Source: Candidatus Saccharimonadota bacterium
Lineage (GTDB): Bacteria; Patescibacteriota; Saccharimonadia; Saccharimonadales; Saccharimonadaceae
Length of the DNA stretch: 58,628 nt
Direction: 5' to 3'
NCBI GenBank assembly: GCA_017460625.1
Contig: JAFUAT010000007.1
Location: forward strand, 1 to 58,628
Shown here: piece after piece, positions 2,367 through 29,126 of the stretch
How positions within the stretch are numbered: position 1 is the stretch's first letter
How the letters are laid out: every line of letters starts with the position of its first letter
Made by a program: the position numbers and the translations under genes
The notes under the pieces: generated by a model
The model's database searches: none
Told to the model about the DNA's origin: nothing
Seen by the model: only the letters and a program-made list of their open reading frames with translations

Positions 2367-2475
2367 CTCTTACAAATAGCAACAATCTGGGAAATATGCT
2401 ATAATTTTAGTAGCGATTGGAGTGTGATCGAGTAGTTTAAATTTTGTGCTAAATAATTTGAAGGGGGGTGAGAAA

Positions 2476-3462
2476 GTGAGTGGCAGAAAACAACAATTTT
2501 TTGATGAATTGGTGAAGAAGACGAAAGAGCTTGGCCGTGAAGTAACATTTCAAGAAATGGAAGAAGATCCAGGCATGCCATCGCCGAATAATTACGCGTA
2601 CTATTATGGCTCTTTTTCAAACGCGGCAAAGGTAGCTCATAACTATGTACTAAATGGTGGTAAAGCAAAAACCAAAAAGAGCACCTCAGGGGTTAGTCAA
2701 ACTTCTGGAACGCGAATGAGCGGATTAAGTCCAGAAAGAGAAGCTGCAATAATCGAAGAATTCGTGGATATGTACATTGCGGCAGGCGGAGAGATGCCTT
2801 CACTTCGAAAAATCAAGAAAAATCCCTTGATTTCGGAAAAAGAAGTAGCGATCGCCAGAAAAACTAGACTAGTCGATGAGCGGGTAATCAGAAGACTCGC
2901 CGAAGAGAAGACAGGACGTAAATTTATGAGTCAACATGAGCGACGAACAGCACGTCAGAGAGAAACCATCTCTGCAAAAAAGGAGGGAAGAGAGATGAAC
3001 GAAAATGCAGAAGAAACCAAGACTGTAGAAAAGATAGTCGATACACCAAAGAGCAGAAAGCGCTGGAGTGCTAAAGAAGTGGCCAAAGCTGTAGCAACGT
3101 ATTGGGCTGAACACGAGGAACTCCCGCCTGCACGAAGATACAACGACGTGGAAAAGGAGTTCGGCTTGCCGCCATACACTGTAATCCGAAGAATTCTCGG
3201 GAATGATCGTGAAAGATGGCTTGATGTTGCTAGTGCGATACTAAATGATGGAGAAACAGTGGTCAAAAAACCAGAGCCAAAAGAAATTAGCGTGCAACAG
3301 AAAAGAGAACTAAAAACAATCGACGAACTAACAGAACTCTTAAAGGAGGGCGGCGCATTAGAATCTGTCATTAAAATGGTTGGACCGATAGAGCTGAATG
3401 CTACATACCGATACAAACTTGGTAACATGCCAATTCTCATCAAGATCGAAACAGAAAAATAG
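2476..3462 (+). CDS. Protein with three homing-endonuclease-associated (HNH) repeats
   Basis: A 328-aa protein made of at least three copies of a small helical module that resembles the homing endonuclease associated repeat: residues about 5-55 (with a typical P-x-Y...FGS-like core, YYYGSFSNAAKVA), about 75-130, and about 185-245 (PPYTVIRRILGN). Such modules bind DNA next to HNH or LAGLIDADG nucleases, but no HNH core (His-Asn-His) is visible here, so a DNA-binding protein without its own nuclease is the better guess. The GTG start is chosen because GGGGGGTGA lies five bases upstream; TATAAT lies near 2399. A terminator follows directly. Confidence 0.55.
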   Translation: MSGRKQQFFDELVKKTKELGREVTFQEMEEDPGMPSPNNYAYYYGSFSNAAKVAHNYVLNGGKAKTKKSTSGVSQTSGTRMSGLSPEREAAIIEEFVDMYIAAGGEMPSLRKIKKNPLISEKEVAIARKTRLVDERVIRRLAEEKTGRKFMSQHERRTARQRETISAKKEGREMNENAEETKTVEKIVDTPKSRKRWSAKEVAKAVATYWAEHEELPPARRYNDVEKEFGLPPYTVIRRILGNDRERWLDVASAILNDGETVVKKPEPKEISVQQKRELKTIDELTELLKEGGALESVIKMVGPIELNATYRYKLGNMPILIKIETEK

Positions 3463-3470
3463 CACAAAAT

Positions 3471-3497
3471 AAACCCCCGGTCACCCGGGGGTTTTAC
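3471..3497. terminator. Bidirectional intrinsic terminator
   Basis: CCCCCGG (3474-3480) and CCGGGGG (3485-3491) form a GC stem with a four-base loop, flanked by AAA and TTTT. It ends the preceding gene on the plus strand and, read from the other side, could end the tRNA-Ala/tRNA-Ile transcript on the minus strand. Confidence 0.85.
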
Positions 3498-3512
3498 CTG
3501 GTATAATTTGTT

Positions 3513-3670
3513 AGTAAAAATCGCATAGATTGGTGTTTTCTTCTTGCGAAGCGCTATTTCCGATAGAGCGAGCAAGAAAAAACGCCAAGATAGGCGATTT
3601 TTACAACAAATTGGTGGGGATATGTGGACTTGCCCGCGCAAGCACCACAGTCCCACTTTTTTATTTTTTT
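3513..3670 (+). ncRNA. Candidate small RNA with own promoter, two hairpins and terminator
   Basis: TATAAT at 3502-3507 is followed by a nearly continuous hairpin (arms 3507-3524 and 3594-3610, continued inwards by GGTGTTTTCTTCTTGC against GCAAGAAAAAACGCC). A second hairpin at 3614-3656 (TGTGG with CCACA, CTTG with CAAG, outer GTGGGGA with TCCCAC) is followed by 13 T in 14 bases, a textbook terminator. A transcript of about 155 nt would result. No ORF in it looks real. Its segment 3610-3632 is identical to the antisense of the 3' end of the neighbouring tRNA-Ile. A 6S-like role is conceivable from the long duplex, but it is shorter than usual; I do not recognise the family. Confidence 0.55.
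3610..3632. repeat. Duplicate of the tRNA-Ile 3' end (23 bp, matches 3681-3703)
   Basis: The 23 bases at 3610-3632 are identical to 3681-3703, which covers the encoded CCA, discriminator, acceptor strand and T-stem of tRNA-Ile. A further shared ACCACAG follows in both, with an insertion in this copy. It may be the scar of a former tRNA-targeted integration (a distal att site) or part of a functional antisense RNA; here it forms the 5' arm of the small-RNA terminator hairpin. Confidence 0.8.
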
Positions 3671-3682
3671 GTGAAACAAAAT

Positions 3683-3759
3683 TGGTGGGGATATGTGGAC
3701 TTGAACCACAGACCTCGTCATTATCAGTGACGCGCTCTAACCAGCTGAGCTATATCCCC
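3683..3759 (-). tRNA. tRNA-Ile (GAT)
   Basis: Read on the minus strand, acceptor GGGGATA pairs with TATCCCC; the D-arm is GCTC...GAGC; the anticodon stem CGTCA/TGACG carries loop CTGATAA with anticodon GAT; the T-arm is TGTGG-TTCAAGT-CCACA. The 3' CCA is encoded (3683-3685). It lies five bases after tRNA-Ala in the same transcript. This Ile/Ala pair usually sits in the 16S-23S spacer but is here separated from, and opposite to, the 16S gene. Confidence 0.97.
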
Positions 3760-3764
3760 AAATA

Positions 3765-3841
3765 TGGTGGAGTAACAGGGACTCAAACCCTGGACCTCCG
3801 CCTTGCAAAGGCGGCGCTCTAATCAACTGAGCTATTACCCC
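3765..3841 (-). tRNA. tRNA-Ala (TGC)
   Basis: On the minus strand acceptor GGGGTAA pairs with TTACTCC (one G-T pair), the D-arm is GCTC...GAGC, anticodon stem CCGCC/GGCGG with loop TTTGCAA gives anticodon TGC, and the T-arm is CAGGG-TTTGAGT-CCCTG. CCA is encoded at 3765-3767. It is the promoter-proximal gene of the two-tRNA unit. Confidence 0.97.
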
Positions 3842-20457: not shown

Positions 20458-20473
20458 TGGCTCCCGGGACTGG
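20458..20473. repeat. Left attachment site (attL), 16-bp copy of the tRNA-Asn 3' end
   Basis: Identical to 29052-29067 (encoded CCA, discriminator, acceptor strand and part of the T-stem of tRNA-Asn). The flanks differ immediately on both sides, as expected for the limits of crossover homology. Confidence 0.8.
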
Positions 20474-20501
20474 TCGCTAGCTTTTGCTAACGCAAAAATG
20501 C

Positions 20502-20530
20502 TTGACATTGTATTGCATTTGTAGTAAAAT
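20502..20530 (+). promoter_or_regulatory. Promoter of the toxin-antitoxin operon
   Basis: TTGACA (20502-20507) and TAAAAT (20525-20530) are 17 bases apart, with a TAGC-TTTT-GCTA dyad just upstream (20478-20489) where an autoregulating antitoxin might bind. Confidence 0.75.
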
Positions 20531-20548
20531 CAACATAAGGAGATATAT

Positions 20549-20830
20549 ATGAGTACAACTACACCAACCCAAATTAGAATAGACACAAATACTAAAAAAC
20601 GAGCGAACGAACTTTTCGCTACGCTAGGGATGGATATGTCTGGCGCAGTTAATATTTTTCTAAATCAATGTATATTAAGAGGCGGAATCCCTTTTCAAAT
20701 AGAAGTTCCCAAGTATAATCAAGAAACGGAGGAGGCCATAGCTGAGGCTCGCAAGCTTATGCAGGATGACACCGCTCCAACTTATCGAACTATGTCAGAA
20801 TACCATGCAGCCCTAGCAGGAGATAACTAG
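20549..20830 (+). CDS. Type II antitoxin, RelB/DinJ family
   Basis: A 93-aa antitoxin. Residues 5-50 have the ribbon-helix-helix pattern of DinJ: a short strand (TQIRIDTNTKKRANEL), then the two helices with LGMDMSGAVNIFLNQ. The acidic C-terminal half would wrap around the toxin. Antitoxins of this group bind and repress their own promoter. TAAGGAGATATAT gives a good ribosome site. The toxin gene begins directly after the stop codon. It is the first gene inside the element. Confidence 0.88.
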   Translation: MSTTTPTQIRIDTNTKKRANELFATLGMDMSGAVNIFLNQCILRGGIPFQIEVPKYNQETEEAIAEARKLMQDDTAPTYRTMSEYHAALAGDN

Positions 20831-21109
20831 ATGTATGATTTAAGAATGACCTCTAGGTATTCAAAGTCATACAAGAAGATGCGAAAACGCGGGCTAGACA
20901 TGAGCCTGCTAGACAATGTTGTGGATTTGCTAAGATGCGGAGAGATGCTACCAGCAAAATATAAAGATCATGCTCTTACTGGAAAATATAAAGGTTTTCG
21001 CGAATGTCATATAAAACCAGACTGGCTGCTAATATACGCAATAAATGAAGAAATATTAATCTTGGTTTTGTCTGATACAGGAACGCATGCAGATTTATTC
21101 GGAATGTAA
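20831..21109 (+). CDS. Type II toxin, YafQ-family mRNA endonuclease
   Basis: A 92-aa RelE-superfamily ribonuclease that cuts mRNA in the translating ribosome. The residues known to be catalytic in YafQ are all present: the first His in YKDHALTG (about 49), the second in RECHIKPDW (about 62) with the Asp of PDW (about 66), and the third in TGTHADLF (about 87). The toxin therefore looks active, unlike the broken module upstream. It starts at the base after the antitoxin stop. It probably stabilises the element. A copy of the tRNA-like att sequence begins at the end of the gene. Confidence 0.9.
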   Translation: MYDLRMTSRYSKSYKKMRKRGLDMSLLDNVVDLLRCGEMLPAKYKDHALTGKYKGFRECHIKPDWLLIYAINEEILILVLSDTGTHADLFGM

Positions 21110-21129
21110 GCTCTCGGAACTGGACTCGA
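21110..21129. repeat. Degenerate third copy of the tRNA-Asn 3' end
   Basis: GCTCTCGGAACTGGACTCGA (21110-21129) matches 18 of 20 bases of the tRNA-Asn gene at 29054-29073. Together with the left att copy it brackets the toxin-antitoxin operon, as though this were a separate cassette added next to an older left boundary. Confidence 0.65.
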
Positions 21130-21318
21130 TTCGAGCGAAGCGAGAACGATGTCCTGCTTTTTGTGTGCATCGTCAGATGCATGGCTCCGGCAAATGGAAA
21201 CATTGCGAACTAGCAGTATTCCATATGACGAAGTAAAGTTTGAGAATGTAAAAATTCTCATCGATAATTATAGCACGTCGCCTATATTGACGCAAATGAT
21301 AGAAGATAACAGATAGGC
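21130..21318. other. Spacer with short dyads, no gene
   Basis: Between the toxin gene and the next promoter I see only short inverted repeats (CGAGCGAAGCGAG near 21129; GCATCGTCAGATGC near 21168) and no supported ORF. Confidence 0.4.
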
Positions 21319-21343
21319 AACAGATAACGGTTATGGTATAATA
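21319..21343 (+). promoter_or_regulatory. Repeated leaderless promoter, copy 1
   Basis: A 25-bp block beginning AACAGATAACGGTTATGG and ending in TATAATA recurs at 21919-21943 with one mismatch. In both, TATAAT ends exactly six bases before the ATG. AGATAAC also occurs just upstream (21304), so a shared operator is likely. Confidence 0.7.
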
Positions 21344-21348
21344 TAGAT

Positions 21349-21894
21349 ATGGAAACCGAAATTGATACGAATTCGACCGATATTGCAATCGTCCCCGGAC
21401 GCACTCCGTCCGAACGTTTGAATATGGACATTGTAGAAGAAATGAAAAATCGTAGTCGGTCAGTTAAATTGTATAAGAATGATAAGAAAGCGCGATTTAT
21501 TGAATTACGTGCTCGCGGCGCGAGTTTCCAAGATATTGCTGACATTTTGGATTGTGGCAAATCAACTCTGGTTGGTTGGAATAAAGAATTAGCAGATGAA
21601 GTTGCCGAACGCAAGGCTATGACGAAAAATGATATTCTGTGCGATTATCAGGTTGCCCGCGATAATCGTTTACGCTATTTCGCTGAATTATATCGCGATA
21701 TAAAAAATGAACTAGCTAGACGAACTCTGCGCGACGTCCCGTCCGACAAGCTTTACGCTATGCTTGAAAAATGCTCAAAACATATTGACGAATTGAGCGG
21801 CGAAAAACGCGAAGATAGAAAAGACGCAAGCATTATAGCGATATCGCAAACAGAACGCGTTAGAACCGCCTTAAAATGCGTCAGAGCGGCATAA
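21349..21894 (+). CDS. Helix-turn-helix protein of the element
   Basis: A 181-aa protein with a resolvase/terminase-small-subunit-like HTH (ARGASFQDIADILDCGKST, about 54-72, then LVGWNKEL), followed by long charged helices. Phage small terminase subunits and transposase N-termini share this layout, but no large terminase or transposase follows, so an element-specific DNA-binding regulator or origin-binding protein is equally likely. It is transcribed leaderless from the repeated promoter. Confidence 0.6.
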   Translation: METEIDTNSTDIAIVPGRTPSERLNMDIVEEMKNRSRSVKLYKNDKKARFIELRARGASFQDIADILDCGKSTLVGWNKELADEVAERKAMTKNDILCDYQVARDNRLRYFAELYRDIKNELARRTLRDVPSDKLYAMLEKCSKHIDELSGEKREDRKDASIIAISQTERVRTALKCVRAA

Positions 21895-21918
21895 ATATCG
21901 CAGCCGACCGCTCTTTTT

Positions 21919-21943
21919 AACAGATAACGATTATGGTATAATA
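21919..21943 (+). promoter_or_regulatory. Repeated leaderless promoter, copy 2
   Basis: Same 25-bp block as 21319-21343 with a single G-to-A change, again six bases from the ATG (21949). It suggests common control of the two genes, perhaps by the HTH protein between the copies. Confidence 0.7.
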
Positions 21944-21948
21944 AGGCT

Positions 21949-23457
21949 ATGAACAATAGCCGACCGTCAGATATGATAAGTGATAATTTATCGGCAATGC
22001 GTCACGCGCACGAAGCCGTTGTCATTGCTTTGAAGTCCGGCGAATATAATGGCGAAGAGATTACGCCAAAAGAATTGAAGAAATTACCACAGGTTGATTA
22101 CCGTATAAAGAGAGTTATTGAAATCGGCGAGTTATTGGACAAAGTCGTCGGTAATGCGCCATACAGAGAATACGGTGTTCTTGCCGCGAGTTATCAATTA
22201 TTATGTTGTAATTTGAATCAAAGGGTTAACGAAATTGACGAAGACAAAAAGCCTTCTGAATATGCGTCACCAAAACAGTTAATTCCGCCAAAAGACATTG
22301 ATATTAAAAGCGTTGAAAGGTGTAAAAATACATTAGAGAAATGGTTGACAAATAAAGAAATTGAACGTTATGTCAAACCATTTAAGGAAGATATTGACCG
22401 ATTAAATAAATTGATTAGTTTTTGTGATAATGAGTTCAAGAAACAAAAGGATTATCCCGGCGATAAGTTGGTCTTTAATCCGTTTCCCGATTCAATACTG
22501 TATTATGCTAATCAATTGTTTAGCGATTGCGTGAACCAAATACTGATAGCAACAAAAATAACACCGGAGATAGAGTCAATTGCAGAATATATTACACAAG
22601 AAAATCAGTTTAGTGTAGCGGGAATCCAAATCAAATTCCACAAAGGACACGGCTTTGTGAGTTCGTTGGCAACGCAATGGGAGTATCTTGGCATTATCGG
22701 TAAATTTAATGACACTAAACCACGTGAACTGCTTATTAAATCGTATAAGAAGATAATAGCGACAATCCAAAATTACAATGACAATATTAGAAATATTATT
22801 GAACGGGACAGAAAGCCGGCGGGTAAAATAATGACTAAAACGTGTGGTATGGACGACACATTGCGCGACCTTGAAAGAACGTATGGACTATTAACCGAAC
22901 TATTAAACGGCGCAATATATGACGATAAAGAACTAACCAAAAGCCAAACTGATAGACTGAAAGAAATTGATTTATATTACCGCCAAATAATAGGCGTTAG
23001 CAAAGGTTTTGTCGTTTTGTTTGATTATCTTAATTTCTACCAAGGTCATTTTGGAGAACGACGCTATGCGCGCACTTGGCTCAAATCCGGATTGAACGTT
23101 GTTTATGATGAATTAACGCGTGTTTTCTATCAAACGTTAGATAATGAACATTTTAAAAATTGGACGGGCTGTCATAAAATAAAAACCCCAGACGTTGCAC
23201 GTGGAGATGTTGTGTCTGCGCGCAAAGATATTGCCGATTGGTTAAATGATAGAAAGGCTATGAAATATCTGCGGGATTTTAAATATGATATGGAACAAGC
23301 GTTAAGCCTCAAAGAAATTGAGCAGAATTTGATAAAAGGTCAAAACGAGGAATACCTTAAAATCGTAAAACCGCTTCGCGATTCGTTTAGTGAATTTACG
23401 AATATCACGCATTATAATTGTCAAGAAATCTTACAAGAAAATAATTTTTTAAAATAA
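21949..23457 (+). CDS. Large helical protein of unknown function (element)
   Basis: A 502-aa soluble protein, mostly alpha-helical, rich in Lys, Glu, Asn and Tyr, without signal peptide or membrane segment. No catalytic motif is recognised; a few histidines and cysteines (LCCN, CGMDD, HYNC) are scattered without a metal-site pattern. It is the second-largest protein of the element and may act in replication or host interaction. Leaderless start after the repeated promoter. It is followed by the non-coding centre of the element. Confidence 0.65.
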   Translation: MNNSRPSDMISDNLSAMRHAHEAVVIALKSGEYNGEEITPKELKKLPQVDYRIKRVIEIGELLDKVVGNAPYREYGVLAASYQLLCCNLNQRVNEIDEDKKPSEYASPKQLIPPKDIDIKSVERCKNTLEKWLTNKEIERYVKPFKEDIDRLNKLISFCDNEFKKQKDYPGDKLVFNPFPDSILYYANQLFSDCVNQILIATKITPEIESIAEYITQENQFSVAGIQIKFHKGHGFVSSLATQWEYLGIIGKFNDTKPRELLIKSYKKIIATIQNYNDNIRNIIERDRKPAGKIMTKTCGMDDTLRDLERTYGLLTELLNGAIYDDKELTKSQTDRLKEIDLYYRQIIGVSKGFVVLFDYLNFYQGHFGERRYARTWLKSGLNVVYDELTRVFYQTLDNEHFKNWTGCHKIKTPDVARGDVVSARKDIADWLNDRKAMKYLRDFKYDMEQALSLKEIEQNLIKGQNEEYLKIVKPLRDSFSEFTNITHYNCQEILQENNFLK

Positions 23458-23600
23458 AAACGACGGGAAAACGACGGGCGACGACGAGAAAATAAATTAT
23501 TTTTTCAAAAAACGGCGAAAAAACGGTAAGAAAACGGTGGCTTTACAAAAAATAACAGCCGAATAACAGCGTGAAAACAGCGACAACATTCTAAACCATA
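23458..23600. repeat. Iteron-like cluster of short direct repeats
   Basis: Three groups lie in order: AACGACGGG twice (23459-23478); AAAACGG three times in AAAAAACGGCG, AAAAAACGGTAAG and AAAACGGTGG (23507-23540); and AACAGC three times in a 10-12-base period (23551-23582). A dyad CCATAA-CCGG-TTTATGG follows at about 23595-23612. Such clusters are typical of origins or operators. Confidence 0.55.
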
Positions 23601-23636
23601 ACCGGTTTATGGGTATATTTTTAACCCGTTTCGTGA

Positions 23637-23642
23637 TATAAT
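23637..23642 (+). promoter_or_regulatory. -10 element of the structured region
   Basis: TATAAT six bases before the first paired base of the structured region (23648), so the transcript would start at the foot of its outer stem. Confidence 0.6.
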
Positions 23643-23647
23643 TAAAC

Positions 23648-23822
23648 TGCTCTAAATCAATTTTAATTTAACACGCAATACAGGAAAACCTGTCTTTGGC
23701 ACGGAATAGTTTATCTGATGAGATGAGCACCGTGTGCGAGTAACCAGATAAACCCTGTGTTGCGGGAAAACGATTTAGAGCATCGTCAGACGGTGCTCAT
23801 TTTATATTTAGAACCGTCTGAC
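23648..23822 (+). ncRNA. Highly structured leader or origin with pseudoknot potential
   Basis: Five perfect or nearly perfect helices: 23648-23658 with 23772-23782 (11 bp, outer stem); 23674-23684 with 23754-23764 (11 bp, one G-T); 23709-23717 with 23745-23753 (9 bp); 23785-23794 with 23813-23822 (10 bp); and ATGAGCACCGT (23723-23733) with ACGGTGCTCAT (23790-23800, 11 bp). The last pairing joins an apical loop to sequence outside the outer stem (a pseudoknot) and competes with the fourth helix; it is followed by TTTTATATTT. This looks like a switch or a single-strand origin. No known family recognised. Confidence 0.6.
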
Positions 23823-23856
23823 CAAGATATTACATAACCAAGGAGGTATTTGCGAA

Positions 23857-24228
23857 ATGGAAGGCATATTGGCAATTATCGTCGGTTGGGTCGTTGTAGC
23901 TTTGATTATTAGTGCGTTTAAAAACAAAGGCAAAAACAGCGATTCCGATATAGACAAAATCATAGAACAAGCGAAAAAAGACGGCAAAATCAAACCAATA
24001 ACAGAGCATTCTACAACTATGAAAGCGAGCGCCGATACAATCCGTTTAGGAACTGAATCTTGGGAAGAATATAAAAGGGATTTTGCCGGATTAAATAAAA
24101 GCCAACAAGAATATGAATTAGAATATTTTAAGAAAAAATTACACAAACGTTTCCGTAATGCTAATGAAGATATAAAAGACCAAGTTGATGAGGCGATACG
24201 AGAATTGGAGTTAATTTATAGGGCATAA
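23857..24228 (+). CDS. Small membrane-anchored protein (element)
   Basis: A 123-aa protein with one N-terminal membrane helix (about residues 4-21) and a charged helical cytoplasmic part. No family recognised. AAGGAGG nine bases before the ATG is the best SD in the element and lies 18 bases after the last hairpin of the structured leader, so translation or transcription may be controlled by it. The next gene overlaps its stop by one base (TAATG). Confidence 0.6.
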   Translation: MEGILAIIVGWVVVALIISAFKNKGKNSDSDIDKIIEQAKKDGKIKPITEHSTTMKASADTIRLGTESWEEYKRDFAGLNKSQQEYELEYFKKKLHKRFRNANEDIKDQVDEAIRELELIYRA

Positions 24229-25067
24229 TGAATATGGAAAAAACCGACGCGCAACAACGAAACGAAGATGAAGTCCGCCGCATAATGCGCGAACGCGGTT
24301 TTGAAACAGCGTTGGAATCCAAACCTAAAAAGAAACGTCGTGATTTTGATTTTAGTATTATCGGTAAAGTATTAGCCGCCATTGTAGTTATTAGCGGTTT
24401 ATCTTTTGGCGTTTTCGCGTTGATAAAAGCGCCTAAAAACGACGAGGTGGTAAAAGATACGTCTGACAACGAAGACACGCCTCAGAACGCCGATTACGCG
24501 GGTTTAGCGGTATGTTTGAACGCGGCATATACAGACATAGAGGCTGGCGACCCACAGTTTTACCCGAAACTTATTGCGTCATATAAAGCGCAACTTGATT
24601 GCCATAACCAATACCCCACGCCGGACAATGAATCGGAAATATCGGACATAAAACAGCGTTTGAGTAACGTGGAAATTGCCGCAAAAGACGCCGGCGTTAG
24701 CCAAGCCGATATTGAATCCGCGTATAGTTCAATTTCCCAACAAACAACCACAAATCAATCTACAAATGTAAACACGACCCAAAACACCGGCAGTAATTAT
24801 TCCGCACCGGATTGTAGTGCCGAAGAACGCGAGGTTGAAATCCGAAAAACCTTAATGGTGCGCGAGGAACAACAATACAACAGCATTTTTAATAGCAGAA
24901 AATCGTATAGCGAACTCGCTGACCAAGCGGGCGACAATCTTACGCAAGCAAACATTCTTTACGCCGAACAAAAAGCGCGCATAGACGCTGCTTGGCAAAC
25001 TTATTTAGACGCGCAGGCAGCATACAACACAGCGTATGACGATATGTTGAACTGTGAACGGCAATAA
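24228..25067 (+). CDS. Membrane protein with extracellular coiled domain (element)
   Basis: A 279-aa protein: basic cytoplasmic head (KKKRR, about 35-39), membrane helix at about 46-65, then an extracellular region with a Thr/Asn/Gln-rich linker (about 175-195) and a final helical segment. Four cysteines in the outer part (AVCLN, LDCH, PDCS, LNCE) could form two disulfides. The layout recalls phage or conjugation surface proteins, but no family is recognised. Start overlaps the upstream stop, so the two are co-translated. Confidence 0.6.
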   Translation: MNMEKTDAQQRNEDEVRRIMRERGFETALESKPKKKRRDFDFSIIGKVLAAIVVISGLSFGVFALIKAPKNDEVVKDTSDNEDTPQNADYAGLAVCLNAAYTDIEAGDPQFYPKLIASYKAQLDCHNQYPTPDNESEISDIKQRLSNVEIAAKDAGVSQADIESAYSSISQQTTTNQSTNVNTTQNTGSNYSAPDCSAEEREVEIRKTLMVREEQQYNSIFNSRKSYSELADQAGDNLTQANILYAEQKARIDAAWQTYLDAQAAYNTAYDDMLNCERQ

Positions 25068-25101
25068 GATGATACGTTTTGCGGTATAATTATATCAAGA
25101 T

Positions 25102-25875
25102 ATGAAAGATGTAATGACCGTAAGCAAAACCGTAAAGGTTTCAGTCACACGTGATATTGACTGGAATACACCGATTTTGAATAATCTTTTGTCTAGCAAC
25201 AACGTCGTGAGTGTTAATCGTTATCAAGAATTATTGCGGGTCGTAGAAAATGCTGGCGGGATAGCGAAAACGCTAGAACAAGCCACAGCGCAAGCAGTTG
25301 ATTCGTTTTTGTGCGATTTAATACCGTTAAATAACTTAATATCAAATGAGATTCAATTTAATGCTCAATTTGTGCAGATACCAACGGATTTTATAAGCGT
25401 TATTGATAAGATGGACGCACGCATAAAAATATTGATTGAAGAAGTTGAGGGATTGAAACAATTAAAACAAATCAAAACGATAGAATATCAGAAAAACACA
25501 GAATCCCCATTTCTCGTCATCAACGGACGAGAACGCGCTATGAGTGGTGATAAAATGGCATTTGTTGCCGAACAATTTTTTGGTGGCAGAAAACTTACGG
25601 CAAAGAAACGTTGGCTGATAGACAATCTGTATTATGATTATTCCGGCGATTATATCAAGAATAAGAAAAGCTTTATAGGCAATAAACAAACGCACGCCGA
25701 AAATCCAACAAAGACAAAAATAGCGTCTTTTCAGAAAGGGATTGATTCCGCTATTAAGGAAATAAATAACTTCATTGGACGTGTTTTAGGAACACAAAAA
25801 GATTTTATTGTGTATTTTGGAAAAGGTATTTACGGGTTAGACCCAACACTGATAAGACAGCAAAATAAAGAATAA
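25102..25875 (+). CDS. Soluble protein of unknown function (element)
   Basis: A 257-aa helical protein with no signal sequence. No motif recognised; basic C-terminal half (RKLTAKKRWLID). It has its own promoter, TATAAT at 25085-25090, 11 bases before the ATG, and no SD. Possible roles are replication accessory or regulator, by position only. Confidence 0.6.
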   Translation: MKDVMTVSKTVKVSVTRDIDWNTPILNNLLSSNNVVSVNRYQELLRVVENAGGIAKTLEQATAQAVDSFLCDLIPLNNLISNEIQFNAQFVQIPTDFISVIDKMDARIKILIEEVEGLKQLKQIKTIEYQKNTESPFLVINGRERAMSGDKMAFVAEQFFGGRKLTAKKRWLIDNLYYDYSGDYIKNKKSFIGNKQTHAENPTKTKIASFQKGIDSAIKEINNFIGRVLGTQKDFIVYFGKGIYGLDPTLIRQQNKE

Positions 25876-25897
25876 AACAAACTAAACAGATAAGCTC

Positions 25898-25907
25898 TCC
25901 GCGCGGA
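25898..25907. other. GC-rich palindrome upstream of the replication genes
   Basis: TCCGCGCGGA is a perfect 10-bp palindrome in a 65-bp AT-rich gap, followed by a second CACGGA half. A double-strand origin nick site or operator is possible. Confidence 0.35.
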
Positions 25908-25939
25908 ATCGCACGGAATTGTCGCGTTTTAATGGGGGT

Positions 25940-26122
25940 ATGAAAAGCGATGATTCAAAAAACAACGGAAAAACTACGGCGAACGATAACGCCATTGTTT
26001 TGACCGACGACGCAAAAATCGCGTTGGCGCAGTTTTTTGACGTTCTTATTAGTATGGATTCTGATGAATATGGGAATAGTCGAACATACGTAAAACAGAA
26101 AGAGGTAAGTTATGCGGATTAG
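25940..26122 (+). CDS. Small acidic protein (element)
   Basis: A 60-aa protein with a disordered Lys/Asn/Asp-rich start and one helix (DDAKIALAQFFDVLISM). GGGGGT six bases upstream supports the ATG at 25940. It overlaps the SpoVG-like gene by 11 bases, so it is part of the replication operon. Function unknown. Confidence 0.5.
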   Translation: MKSDDSKNNGKTTANDNAIVLTDDAKIALAQFFDVLISMDSDEYGNSRTYVKQKEVSYAD

Positions 26123-26420
26123 TGAAGTGAACATTACACCGATTAAGCCGCACGACGGGCTTGTTGGATTTGCCAATATCGTGATTGACGATAAATGGTT
26201 TTTAAGTTCAATCGGTATTCATACGAAATTAGGCGGCGGTTATCGAATTACATACCCGACGAAAGTAGTCGGCTCGCGGGTAATGGACATATTCCACCCA
26301 ATAAATCGCGAAACAAGTAAGGCGGTGGAATCGGCAATCGTTAAAAAGTTTAATGAGATTTTTGAAAGAAGTAATGAAAATGATAGATACAATCAAATTA
26401 GCAATCCCAATAAACGATAG
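26112..26420 (+). CDS. SpoVG-family protein (element)
   Basis: A 102-aa protein matching the SpoVG pattern: MRISEVNITPI at the start, the central strand-helix with LVGFANIVIDDKWFL, then GGGYRITYPTK and DIFHPINRETSKAVE, equivalent to the DIAHPI...R segment of SpoVG. SpoVG proteins bind DNA or RNA and act as regulators in Firmicutes; a similar fold is common on phages and plasmids. GAGGT precedes the ATG. It lies directly before the replication initiator, which it overlaps by 41 bases, suggesting a role in replication control. Confidence 0.75.
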   Translation: MRISEVNITPIKPHDGLVGFANIVIDDKWFLSSIGIHTKLGGGYRITYPTKVVGSRVMDIFHPINRETSKAVESAIVKKFNEIFERSNENDRYNQISNPNKR

Positions 26421-27501
26421 CCAAGACTTATCAAAGGTAGCGTTTGAAACGCCACTAAATGCCGTTAGAATTGGTTCTACGTCGTATTTTAGAACGTTCC
26501 GCAATCCAATTCCGGCGGAACGGCGATTGGGTATTTACCGTCCACGATTAACCTTTATACGACGACCAACTGGTATTGATAAGTCGATAAATATGCTGTT
26601 AGTAGAAATGTCATTGCCAAAATTGATATTCGGTAATAATTTTGAGGAAATCGCTGAAAACGATTTTGAAACAATCATTTCCTTGCTAACACGAAATCTT
26701 AAAGAAATGGGCGCACCGATTACGCCGGAACAAATACGAAAGGCAAGTGTAGTAAAAGTAGATTTATGTAAAAATATAATCCTTCCAGAATACGTCTCAG
26801 TTCCGTCGATAACTAATCAAATTCGGAAAGCAGATATTTCAATGATATACGACCCGGACTATACGAAATTTAGAAATGGCGGTCATATATTTCACGTCCA
26901 TTGTAATACTTCGGACATAGTCTTTTATGACAAGGTTGCGGATTTGCGACAAGGAAAGATTAGTGAGAAGCGCGGTTTCGAACAGGATTATTACGTTCAA
27001 ACCAAATTGCTTAAAGTATTACAGCAGAACAAGCGCGACATATTGCGCGTTGAGGTGCGCCTTAACAGCAAAAAGAAAATCAGGGCGGAATTAAAAGCAA
27101 TCGGCATTGATTGCGAAGATTTGACCTTCGAAAACATATTTAGGGCGGAATTAGCAAAAGGTATTCTATTCAGCCATTGGAATAAGATTTTTAAGACAAT
27201 CCCAAAAATATTATTAGACTCCGATTCGCCCGAACAACTTTTTTATAGAATTATCAAAGACAACAAGATTACCCCGCAAAAGGCATTGGCAAAATTAGGT
27301 TTTATTTTGTTAGAGGGACAGTGTGAAGATTCGCGACAACTACGCAACGTTATTGAAAATCGCTTTTCGCGGTCAACGTGGGCGGGTTTAAGAAAAGCCC
27401 GTGAACCGCCTAATAAAACTCAACTGAAAACTCTGCTCTATATCGGGCGGGTTATATCAGAAGCAAAAACGTTGCGCTCATCTGAAATCGGGCTGGACTA
27501 A
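26380..27501 (+). CDS. Replication initiator, filamentous-phage gene II/X (CRI) family
   Basis: A 373-aa protein resembling the phage/plasmid replication protein II/X family, whose founding members nick the plus-strand origin of filamentous phages through a tyrosine and start rolling-circle replication. Features: N-terminal MIDTIKLAIP; the conserved LPKLIFGNNFEEIAENDFE (about 81-99); VVKVDLCKNI (about 127-136); HVHCNTSDIVFYDKVADL (about 170-187); and DILRVEVRLNSKKKIRAEL (about 217-235). Several tyrosines could be the nucleophile. The start at 26380 fits the family N-terminus better than the ATG at 26353. It ends 71 bases before the recombinase. Confidence 0.75.
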   Translation: MIDTIKLAIPINDSQDLSKVAFETPLNAVRIGSTSYFRTFRNPIPAERRLGIYRPRLTFIRRPTGIDKSINMLLVEMSLPKLIFGNNFEEIAENDFETIISLLTRNLKEMGAPITPEQIRKASVVKVDLCKNIILPEYVSVPSITNQIRKADISMIYDPDYTKFRNGGHIFHVHCNTSDIVFYDKVADLRQGKISEKRGFEQDYYVQTKLLKVLQQNKRDILRVEVRLNSKKKIRAELKAIGIDCEDLTFENIFRAELAKGILFSHWNKIFKTIPKILLDSDSPEQLFYRIIKDNKITPQKALAKLGFILLEGQCEDSRQLRNVIENRFSRSTWAGLRKAREPPNKTQLKTLLYIGRVISEAKTLRSSEIGLD

Positions 27502-27572
27502 AAACGGTTCCGCTTATAAGATAGAGAGCTAGAAATTATATCACAATAATTAAAGCAAGAAAGGAAAATAAT

Positions 27573-29093
27573 ATGAGTAATAATAAATATAATGGAACAA
27601 AAGCATTTCTAATCGCACGGGTTTCTGACCCAAGCCAACGCGACGCATTGCCGGCACAGGAATTACGGTTGAAAGAATATGCGACAAAATTAAAACTTAA
27701 TTACGACTATCGTTGTTTTGACGAAACGGCGTATAAAGAGGACAGGCAAAAGTTCCAAGAAATAGTTACGGAAATCCAAAAATACCCGGATTTCTGTATA
27801 ATCGTATTCGACAAGATTGACCGGTTTACGCGCGACGGTTCGTCAGAGATAGTCCGTATATTCAAAGATATGGTTAAGGACGGAAGAATTGAGCTGCATT
27901 TTCCGTCCGACGGCTTAATAATTCATAAAGATTCGCCGGCTTGCGACAAGACTCGTCTTGGTATGGGTATGGTTTTCGGGGAATACTATTCTGCCGCAAT
28001 TAGTGATAATGTAAAACGCCGTTTTAACCAAAAAATCCACGATGGGGAGTGGCCTGGAAAAGCGCCGATAGGGTATATGAACATAATTGAGGGTAAGGAC
28101 AAAAATATTGTTCCAGACCCGGAACGCCGCAACTATATTGTTGAAACATTTAGGTTGCGTGCGCAAGGTGCTTCATATCGCGCTATCGCGAAAACATTAC
28201 GCGAAGACGGATTTACCAGTAATATGAAAGTCCCGCGCCCAATTACACAAAGTCAGATTGAGGCCATATTGGAAAATCCGTTTTATTATGGGGTTATGCG
28301 CTACAACGGCGGATTTTACCCTCATAAATATGAACCATTGATTACCAAAATGCTTTTTGATAAAGCGAAAGCGGCAAGCGACGCGCGGGCTTGGAATAAA
28401 ACCAAGACCGCGGTCAAAAACCATTTTACGTTTAACGGAATACTCCGTTGTGCTAATTGTGGTTGTAGTATGTCGTCATACAATAAGAAAGGACACGTTT
28501 ATTTACACTGCACCAAAGCAAAGGGTAATGGCTGCCCACAAAAAAATATACCGGAATCGGTCGTAATGGAACAAGTATTGGAATTGCTTGACCGACTTCA
28601 TATTGGGCAGGACGTTGTTGAACAAGCATTGGAATCACTTAAAAACGAACACGATAACCAACAAACATATTATGCTGGCGCGCTGGAAAAGGCGCGCCAC
28701 GAATATAGAAAATATAAAAACCGATTGGAAACTTTGTATGCTGACCGTCTTGACGGGCGTATTACTGTGGAAGAATACGATAAATATGCGACAGAATATA
28801 GAAATATGGTGGAAGAATTGGACGACCGAATCGTAAGGCTATCAAATGACGATAAATCGTTTGAAATTAAGGCTGGCTATCTGTTAGAATTGGCGGACAA
28901 AGCCAAAACCTTATTTGAAAATTCGCAACCCGAAGAAAAAACCAAACTTTTGAAACTTTTAGTTGCGAACTTGGAAATCAACCAAAAAAGGCTTCAATTT
29001 AACCTGTTGAAGCCTTTTGATATGCTCATTGAGCCACTCCAAAATGGAAATTGGCTCCCGGGACTGGACTCGAACCAGCAACCTCGAAGTTAA
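27573..29093 (+). CDS. Large serine recombinase (integrase)
   Basis: A 506-aa site-specific recombinase. The N-terminal catalytic domain has LIARVSDPSQRDALPAQ with the nucleophilic Ser near residue 18, and the FDKIDRFTRDG segment (about 77-87). The recombinase domain follows (GKAPIGYMN, about 156), then a zinc ribbon with CANCGCS (about 292) and HCTKAKGNGCPQK (about 312-324), a coiled coil (about 350-430) and a tail. AAGGAAA precedes the ATG. The last 14 codons, reading WLPGLDSNQQPRS, are antisense to tRNA-Asn, so the stop is borrowed from the target; in an excised circle the frame would read WLPGLVASFC. It is the only recombinase of the element. Confidence 0.93.
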   Translation: MSNNKYNGTKAFLIARVSDPSQRDALPAQELRLKEYATKLKLNYDYRCFDETAYKEDRQKFQEIVTEIQKYPDFCIIVFDKIDRFTRDGSSEIVRIFKDMVKDGRIELHFPSDGLIIHKDSPACDKTRLGMGMVFGEYYSAAISDNVKRRFNQKIHDGEWPGKAPIGYMNIIEGKDKNIVPDPERRNYIVETFRLRAQGASYRAIAKTLREDGFTSNMKVPRPITQSQIEAILENPFYYGVMRYNGGFYPHKYEPLITKMLFDKAKAASDARAWNKTKTAVKNHFTFNGILRCANCGCSMSSYNKKGHVYLHCTKAKGNGCPQKNIPESVVMEQVLELLDRLHIGQDVVEQALESLKNEHDNQQTYYAGALEKARHEYRKYKNRLETLYADRLDGRITVEEYDKYATEYRNMVEELDDRIVRLSNDDKSFEIKAGYLLELADKAKTLFENSQPEEKTKLLKLLVANLEINQKRLQFNLLKPFDMLIEPLQNGNWLPGLDSNQQPRS

Positions 29094-29126
29094 CAGCTTC
29101 TTGCTCCACCATTGAGCTACCCGGGA
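29052..29126 (-). tRNA. tRNA-Asn (GTT), integration target
   Basis: On the minus strand acceptor TCCCGGG pairs with CCCGGGA, D-arm GCTC...GAGC, anticodon loop CTGTTAA gives GTT, T-arm GCTGG-TTCGAGT-CCAGT, discriminator G and an encoded CCA (29052-29054). The first anticodon-stem pair (A27-G43) is a mismatch. The 3' 16 bases are the att core, so insertion leaves the tRNA intact. It overlaps the 3' end of the recombinase gene on the other strand. Confidence 0.95.

Follow-up and report, generated by a model that had tools for sequence, protein, structure and literature searches.

The tRNA-Ile locus

Near the start of the window (the whole stretch of DNA analysed here, 58,628 nucleotides from a Candidatus Saccharimonadota bacterium), an intact tRNA-Ile gene follows a tRNA-Ala gene on the minus strand. 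Behind it lie a second copy of the tRNA-Ile 3' end, hairpins on both strands and a member of a palindromic repeat family. Read in the direction of the tRNA genes, the features are the following:

3765-3841, minus strand: tRNA-Ala(TGC), upstream of tRNA-Ile on the same strand (ARAGORN and Rfam)
3683-3759, minus strand: tRNA-Ile(GAT), intact (ARAGORN and Rfam)
3679-3703, minus strand: 25-nt direct repeat, copy 1, the tRNA-Ile 3' end with CCA plus 4 nt
3657-3670, plus strand: T-run TTTTTTATTTTTTT, which completes a plus-strand terminator-like site
3612-3656: small hairpin whose minus-strand 3' arm is the tRNA-Ile copy, with the T-run after it on the plus strand (folds; homologous layout at loci L131, L134 and L135)
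3608-3632, minus strand: 25-nt direct repeat, copy 2, a putative att-type copy of the tRNA-Ile 3' end with 21 nt of tRNA at 3612-3632 (exact match; all-or-none in congeners)
3503-3615, minus strand: member of the palindromic repeat family, model R1 (120.5 bits on the minus strand versus 46 on the plus strand)
3577-3596, minus strand: terminator-like half of the repeat in the tRNA sense, CGCC-TATCTT-GGCG then TTTTTT (read from the sequence)
3502-3507, plus strand: TATAAT without a -35 box, not conserved (the promoter proposed in an earlier note on this DNA)
3471-3494: ordinary perfect terminator hairpin between the plus-strand ORF 2446-3462 and the repeat (scored on the minus strand)

The two copies of the direct repeat, at 3608-3632 and 3679-3703, are exact over 25 nt, and 21 of these are the mature tRNA-Ile end including its CCA, positions 3612-3632 being identical to the complement of the last 21 nt of the gene (3683-3759, minus strand). 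The earlier note had described 3610-3632 as a 23-nt antisense to tRNA-Ile. The complementarity is borne out, with 21 nt matching the mature tRNA end and the other 2 lying beyond the CCA, but the segment repeats the tRNA 3' end on the tRNA's own strand and is not an antisense to it. Going 3' from the intact gene, there are about 50 nt, then the 3'-end copy, and then the repeat family member, which starts from the CCA of that copy. The long hairpin, second hairpin and T-run listed in the earlier note are all present. The large hairpin spans 108 nt and is followed by the second hairpin and a T13 run, and the hairpins between 3502 and 3703 fold beyond shuffled sequence on both strands (z = -8.9 for the plus strand, -8.2 for the minus strand). 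Since the large hairpin is a palindrome, such strong folding on both strands is expected.

A palindromic repeat at the 3' ends of tRNA genes

A DNA search finds a 93% identical copy of the large hairpin elsewhere in the genome from which the window comes (the window genome), as well as weaker copies in many congeners. With a covariance model, the repeat is detected in 99 of 174 congeners, and the window genome carries three strong copies, at the window locus, at tRNA-Tyr and at tRNA-Leu(taa). The hairpin is thus not peculiar to this locus, and it is not confined to one genus either: eight copies from a sister genus in the same family were read with their flanks, and every one comes after a sense tRNA. 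The core pattern occurs in 48 genome records, all of them Candidatus Saccharibacteria MAGs and most of them labelled ruminant gut, and a search of viral contigs, phages and plasmids gave no match to the repeat.

The position of the repeat is strongly biased. Ninety-six copies were read with their flanks, in model orientation. Of these, 55 start directly after the CCA of a sense-strand tRNA, and 29 isoacceptors are represented. About 7 more start after the CCA of a tRNA fragment or an apparent tmRNA, as judged by eye, and 19 start at the stop codon of a same-strand ORF, one of which, recognised by its C-terminus, we take to be EF-Tu. Almost all assigned copies have one orientation and start within a few nt of a CCA or a stop codon. 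The remaining copies are unassigned, and at least one of them (L090) lies on the 5' side of a tRNA. Two-way insulation between convergent genes is not supported as a driver of the repeat, the neighbours being convergent in 9 cases and codirectional in 12, with 34 not classed.

The covariation check proposed in the earlier note favours the large hairpin: among 70 aligned copies, 33 of 39 pairs have changes on both sides, and pairing holds in 93% of alignment cells, a share that drops to 39-49% once one side is slid. This covariation fits selection on a hairpin. The first (sense) half has a short G+C hairpin with a T-run after it in 63 of 90 copies, compared with 2.2 by shuffling, and the mirror half is terminator-like in 24 of 90 copies (1.4 by shuffling). 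Because the sense half consists of a G+C hairpin and a T-run, the repeat looks like an intrinsic terminator of the upstream gene set inside a larger palindrome. Two points weigh against reading it as a selected terminator. A terminator role does not account for the strong conservation of the repeat's centre, and similar covariation could arise, in part, at the DNA level, through template-switch correction of quasipalindromes.

The nearest copy often sits at a different tRNA in a different species, with 91-93% identity. As 29 isoacceptors carry the repeat and the closest copies are often at other tRNAs in other species, the repeat appears to disperse. Where a partial second copy occurs, it is almost always distal and in most cases a 3' half. 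Only about the first 20 nt of the repeat are retained at tRNA-Trp in the window genome; in G094 the repeat at this tRNA is complete. The arms pair inside each copy yet differ between subfamilies, and there is no close empty site to compare for a duplication. Two candidate movers were rejected. A REP driven by a RAYT is disfavoured, as no Y1 transposase is found in the window genome (G000) and only 8 of 174 congeners have one. Large serine recombinases do not co-occur with the repeat across genomes (18/15 versus 13/14, Fisher p = 0.80), and G027 has 11 repeat copies and no recombinase.

Copies of tRNA 3' ends

Short copies of tRNA 3' ends are frequent in the window genome, of which 706 of 712 kb were covered. 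For 11 of its 44 tRNAs, the last 10 nt or more of the gene are recopied within 200 nt downstream, in ten cases at 64-83 nt. Control pairs gave such a match in only 10 of 1892 cases, 6 of which are whole neighbouring tRNAs, and there were none upstream and none in antisense. With 11/44 tRNAs against 10/1892 control pairs, these copies are beyond chance. Copies with CCA lie 64-83 nt downstream of tRNA-Glu(ctc), Gln(ttg), Ser(gga), Gly(tcc) and Gly(gcc), and also of Met, Ser(tga), Leu(gag) and Arg(gcg). An orphan pair of tRNA-Ser(gga) 3'-end copies, of 29 and 15 nt and 76 nt apart, occurs on the plus strand of contig C10 of the same genome (L175); the copies end at 28488 and 28564, 7.3 kb from the tRNA and on the opposite strand. 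In another genome (L217, G131:C6), a 25-nt direct repeat with copies about 82 nt apart, made of 13 nt of tRNA 3' end and 12 nt beyond the CCA, is found downstream of tRNA-Thr(tgt) 2710-2785.

The ten copies at 64-83 nt (called scars below) adjoin an upstream arm with which they form a hairpin. In three unrelated cases, the arms are tRNA-specific and the loop GGGCTTCGCCAA is common, this loop being absent elsewhere in the 706 kb examined. On the plus strand, the small hairpin at the window locus is followed by a T-run, and direct reading shows a similar arrangement at tRNA-Glu, Gly(tcc), Leu(gag), Ser(tga) and the tRNA-Tyr of L087. A hairpin and T-run of this kind could stop transcription heading towards the tRNA. 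In four other congeners, the tRNA-Ile copy is present at a similar place without the repeat, and in L134 its place is between the tRNA-Ile and tRNA-Ala genes. Each tRNA-Ile locus compared has either a perfect copy or none, although some of these loci were found by an exact-copy search, which favours perfect ones.

In 12 of 174 congeners, other short hairpins stand behind tRNA-Ile or tRNA-Ala (L136-L147, L003, L006, L015, L019, L030). These Ala-type minihelices, (A)CAT|GGGGTG..CACTCCACCA, have covarying stems, a G3:U70-like wobble, A73 and CCA, features that make them candidates for natural alanine-chargeable minihelices.

Serine-recombinase elements at tRNA genes

The window genome encodes five large serine recombinases, each of them convergent with a tRNA 3' end and abutting it. 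Of 34 large serine recombinase ORFs sampled from the genus, 20 extend into the 3' end of a convergent tRNA. One of these targets is tRNA-Ile (L321, in G078), where the last codons of the recombinase are the complement of the same 21 nt as the window copy. The window itself holds an apparently intact 8.6-kb integrative element at tRNA-Asn (20458-29126), which is without a clear arm-loop-copy hairpin and has these parts:

27573-29093, plus strand: large serine recombinase entering tRNA-Asn, its last residues encoded by the tRNA complement
29052-29126, minus strand: tRNA-Asn
20458-20473: 16-nt copy of the tRNA-Asn 3' end, 8.6 kb off

At two other intact elements, at tRNA-Arg(tcg) in G000 (7.5 kb) and at tRNA-Leu(gag) in G026 (5.8 kb), the far copy has the scar-like arm-loop-copy layout. 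As recombinases sit at tRNA 3' ends, including that of tRNA-Ile, and intact elements show the scar layout, the window copy is read as an att-type scar. These recombinase genes and elements lend weight to an alternative offered in the earlier note, "an att scar that became a terminator". The word scar is nevertheless applied to the window copy by inference, because only about 50 nt, with no recombinase or cargo, separate the two tRNA-Ile copies. A second group of PF07508 recombinases (L297-L304) stands away from tRNA genes, several of them as tandem pairs in one contig.

A probable two-layered trailer and its alternatives

The feature may be described as the minus-strand 3' trailer of a tRNA-Ala/tRNA-Ile operon, built in two layers. 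The first, directly behind tRNA-Ile, would be an att-type scar made up of about 50 nt of other sequence and the second 3'-end copy (21 nt with CCA). A tRNA-targeting integrative element would have restored the tRNA at one end and left the original 3' fragment at the other, and the interior would then have been lost by deletion. With its plus-strand hairpin and T-run, the scar might keep convergent transcription from reading the tRNA in antisense. The second layer would be the palindromic repeat of about 108 bp placed behind the copy's CCA, which would move between loci and so disperse among the 3' ends of tRNAs and some other genes. Fixed in the sense orientation, it would offer the upstream gene an intrinsic-terminator-like hairpin and T-run in its first half, and the function would be termination. 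This account is probably correct: an att-type scar that can serve to terminate antisense transcription, with a dispersing terminator-like repeat behind it. The earlier observation is mostly right; its small-RNA reading is not supported, and an att scar turned terminator is the better, well-supported explanation. Several facts stand against the scar itself. An element would need far more than about 50 bp, and no recombinase gene lies between the tRNA-Ile copies. Random deletion would not predict ten scars of near-equal length in one genome. The tRNA-proximal flank is a T-rich/A-rich stretch in the scars and a recombinase gene in the intact elements, and the copies remain exact while the loops diverge.

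The small RNA had been proposed as a plus-strand transcript, about 155 nt long, that would act as a decoy or regulator with its terminator arm paired to the tRNA-Ile 3' end. The TATAAT at 3502, the stable folds, the T-run and the perfect complementarity agree with it, but a promoter scan is empty at 3502 and this lone box lies outside the repeat that relatives conserve. The covariance model scores far higher on the minus strand, and hairpin copies at other loci are fixed in the tRNA sense, so that the family is oriented with the upstream gene, here the minus-strand tRNA-Ile. An Rfam search of the feature returned only low-scoring matches, far below the family cut-offs, with the gathering cut-off reached for no known RNA family. 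Nor do promoter, hairpin and tRNA copy form one unit: besides the four genomes with a tRNA-Ile copy and no hairpin, most hairpins in relatives are without a tRNA-end copy, so the parts are separable, a result which the note itself had named as speaking against a small RNA. Such a transcript is very improbable. It is also improbable, though less so, that the copies of tRNA ends work as mini-tRNA hairpins (acceptor strand plus CCA), selected as processing signals or CCA-ended small RNAs, and not att scars. This would suit copies that begin at the hairpin's 3' arm with uniform spacing in the window genome, the loop shared by three unrelated scars with tRNA-specific arms, the perfect-or-absent tRNA-Ile copy and its place between two tRNAs in L134, and the Ala-type minihelices. 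However, the arm-loop-copy layout is also seen at the far ends of intact recombinase elements, the exact search pattern favours perfect copies, and gene conversion over 70 bp could also account for exactness. The predicted fold pairs the CCA itself in several cases, and most genomes and most tRNAs have no such copies.

It is unlikely that the palindrome by itself is a MITE or REP of the classical type, mobilised in trans by a transposase and sitting at tRNA ends only because a compact genome tolerates insertions there. The repeat is indeed short, non-coding and dispersed, with arm subfamilies, and native terminators of the window genome also often begin near a CCA. Against this stand the scarcity of Y1 transposases, the lack of association with serine recombinases, the near-constant orientation within a few nt of a CCA or stop codon, and the fact that no target duplication is recognised, there being no close empty site for comparison. 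A bolder proposal, possible but doubtful, has two parts. The palindrome would be a new kind of sense-only dispersing element aimed at gene 3' termini (the CCA of tRNAs, less often stop codons), supplying a terminator while older copies are pushed outward and truncated. At the same time, hairpins with acceptor strand and CCA, including the Ala-type with its G3:U70-like pair, would be kept as functional mini-tRNA ends behind tRNA genes.

Relation to known systems and significance

The tRNA 3'-end copy, read as an att-type scar, resembles the tRNA gene fragments left as attL/attR copies by tRNA-targeting integrative elements (e.g. PMC9897764): an intact tRNA is followed by a same-strand 3'-end copy through the CCA, and recombinases of the genus target tRNA 3' ends, that of tRNA-Ile included. 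Unlike those copies, the ones here are separated by only about 50 bp, they occur at ten tRNAs of one genome with near-equal spacing, and a tRNA-specific arm upstream folds with the copy into a hairpin. The palindromic repeat can be compared with several systems. Intrinsic (Rho-independent) terminators include repeat-made families, for example paired DNA uptake sequences (cited in PMC2267715), and they share with the repeat a G+C hairpin and T-run directly behind a gene, with a sense bias; the repeat differs in that its hairpin lies inside a 108-bp palindrome with a conserved centre and is dispersed across tRNAs and species. Like the REP/REPIN elements of RAYT transposases (PMC2817692, PMC3116915, PMC8266576), the repeat is palindromic, intergenic, dispersed and non-coding, but it is far longer, has fewer copies per genome and keeps one orientation behind gene ends, in a host without a Y1 transposase. 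MITEs (e.g. PMC6382973) are, as the repeat is, short inverted-repeat elements without a gene. However, the outer arms of the repeat differ from copy to copy, though within a copy they always pair, and neither a target-site duplication (in the absence of a close empty site) nor a partner transposase was found for it. In the open-access literature on Saccharibacteria palindromic repeats, on serine recombinases and tRNA, and on tRNA-adjacent minihelices, no description of these features was found.

If the two-layered account is right, two simultaneous processes shape the tRNA 3' ends of these Saccharibacteria. In one, serine-recombinase elements whose genes read into tRNA genes would leave copies of tRNA ends. 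In the other, a palindromic terminator-like repeat would spread from tRNA to tRNA and between species. Together they would make the evolution of stable-RNA ends in very small genomes open to test. The locus also calls for caution: a match read as "antisense to tRNA" beside a tRNA gene can, once the strand is set right, turn out to be an att-type copy. The more far-reaching result is the palindromic terminator-like repeat that disperses among tRNA ends. Another motif, GGGCGAGAACC..GGTTCGCC..GTAGGAG, also recurs near tRNA genes of the genus, in the flanks of L054, L057, L065, L097 and L122.
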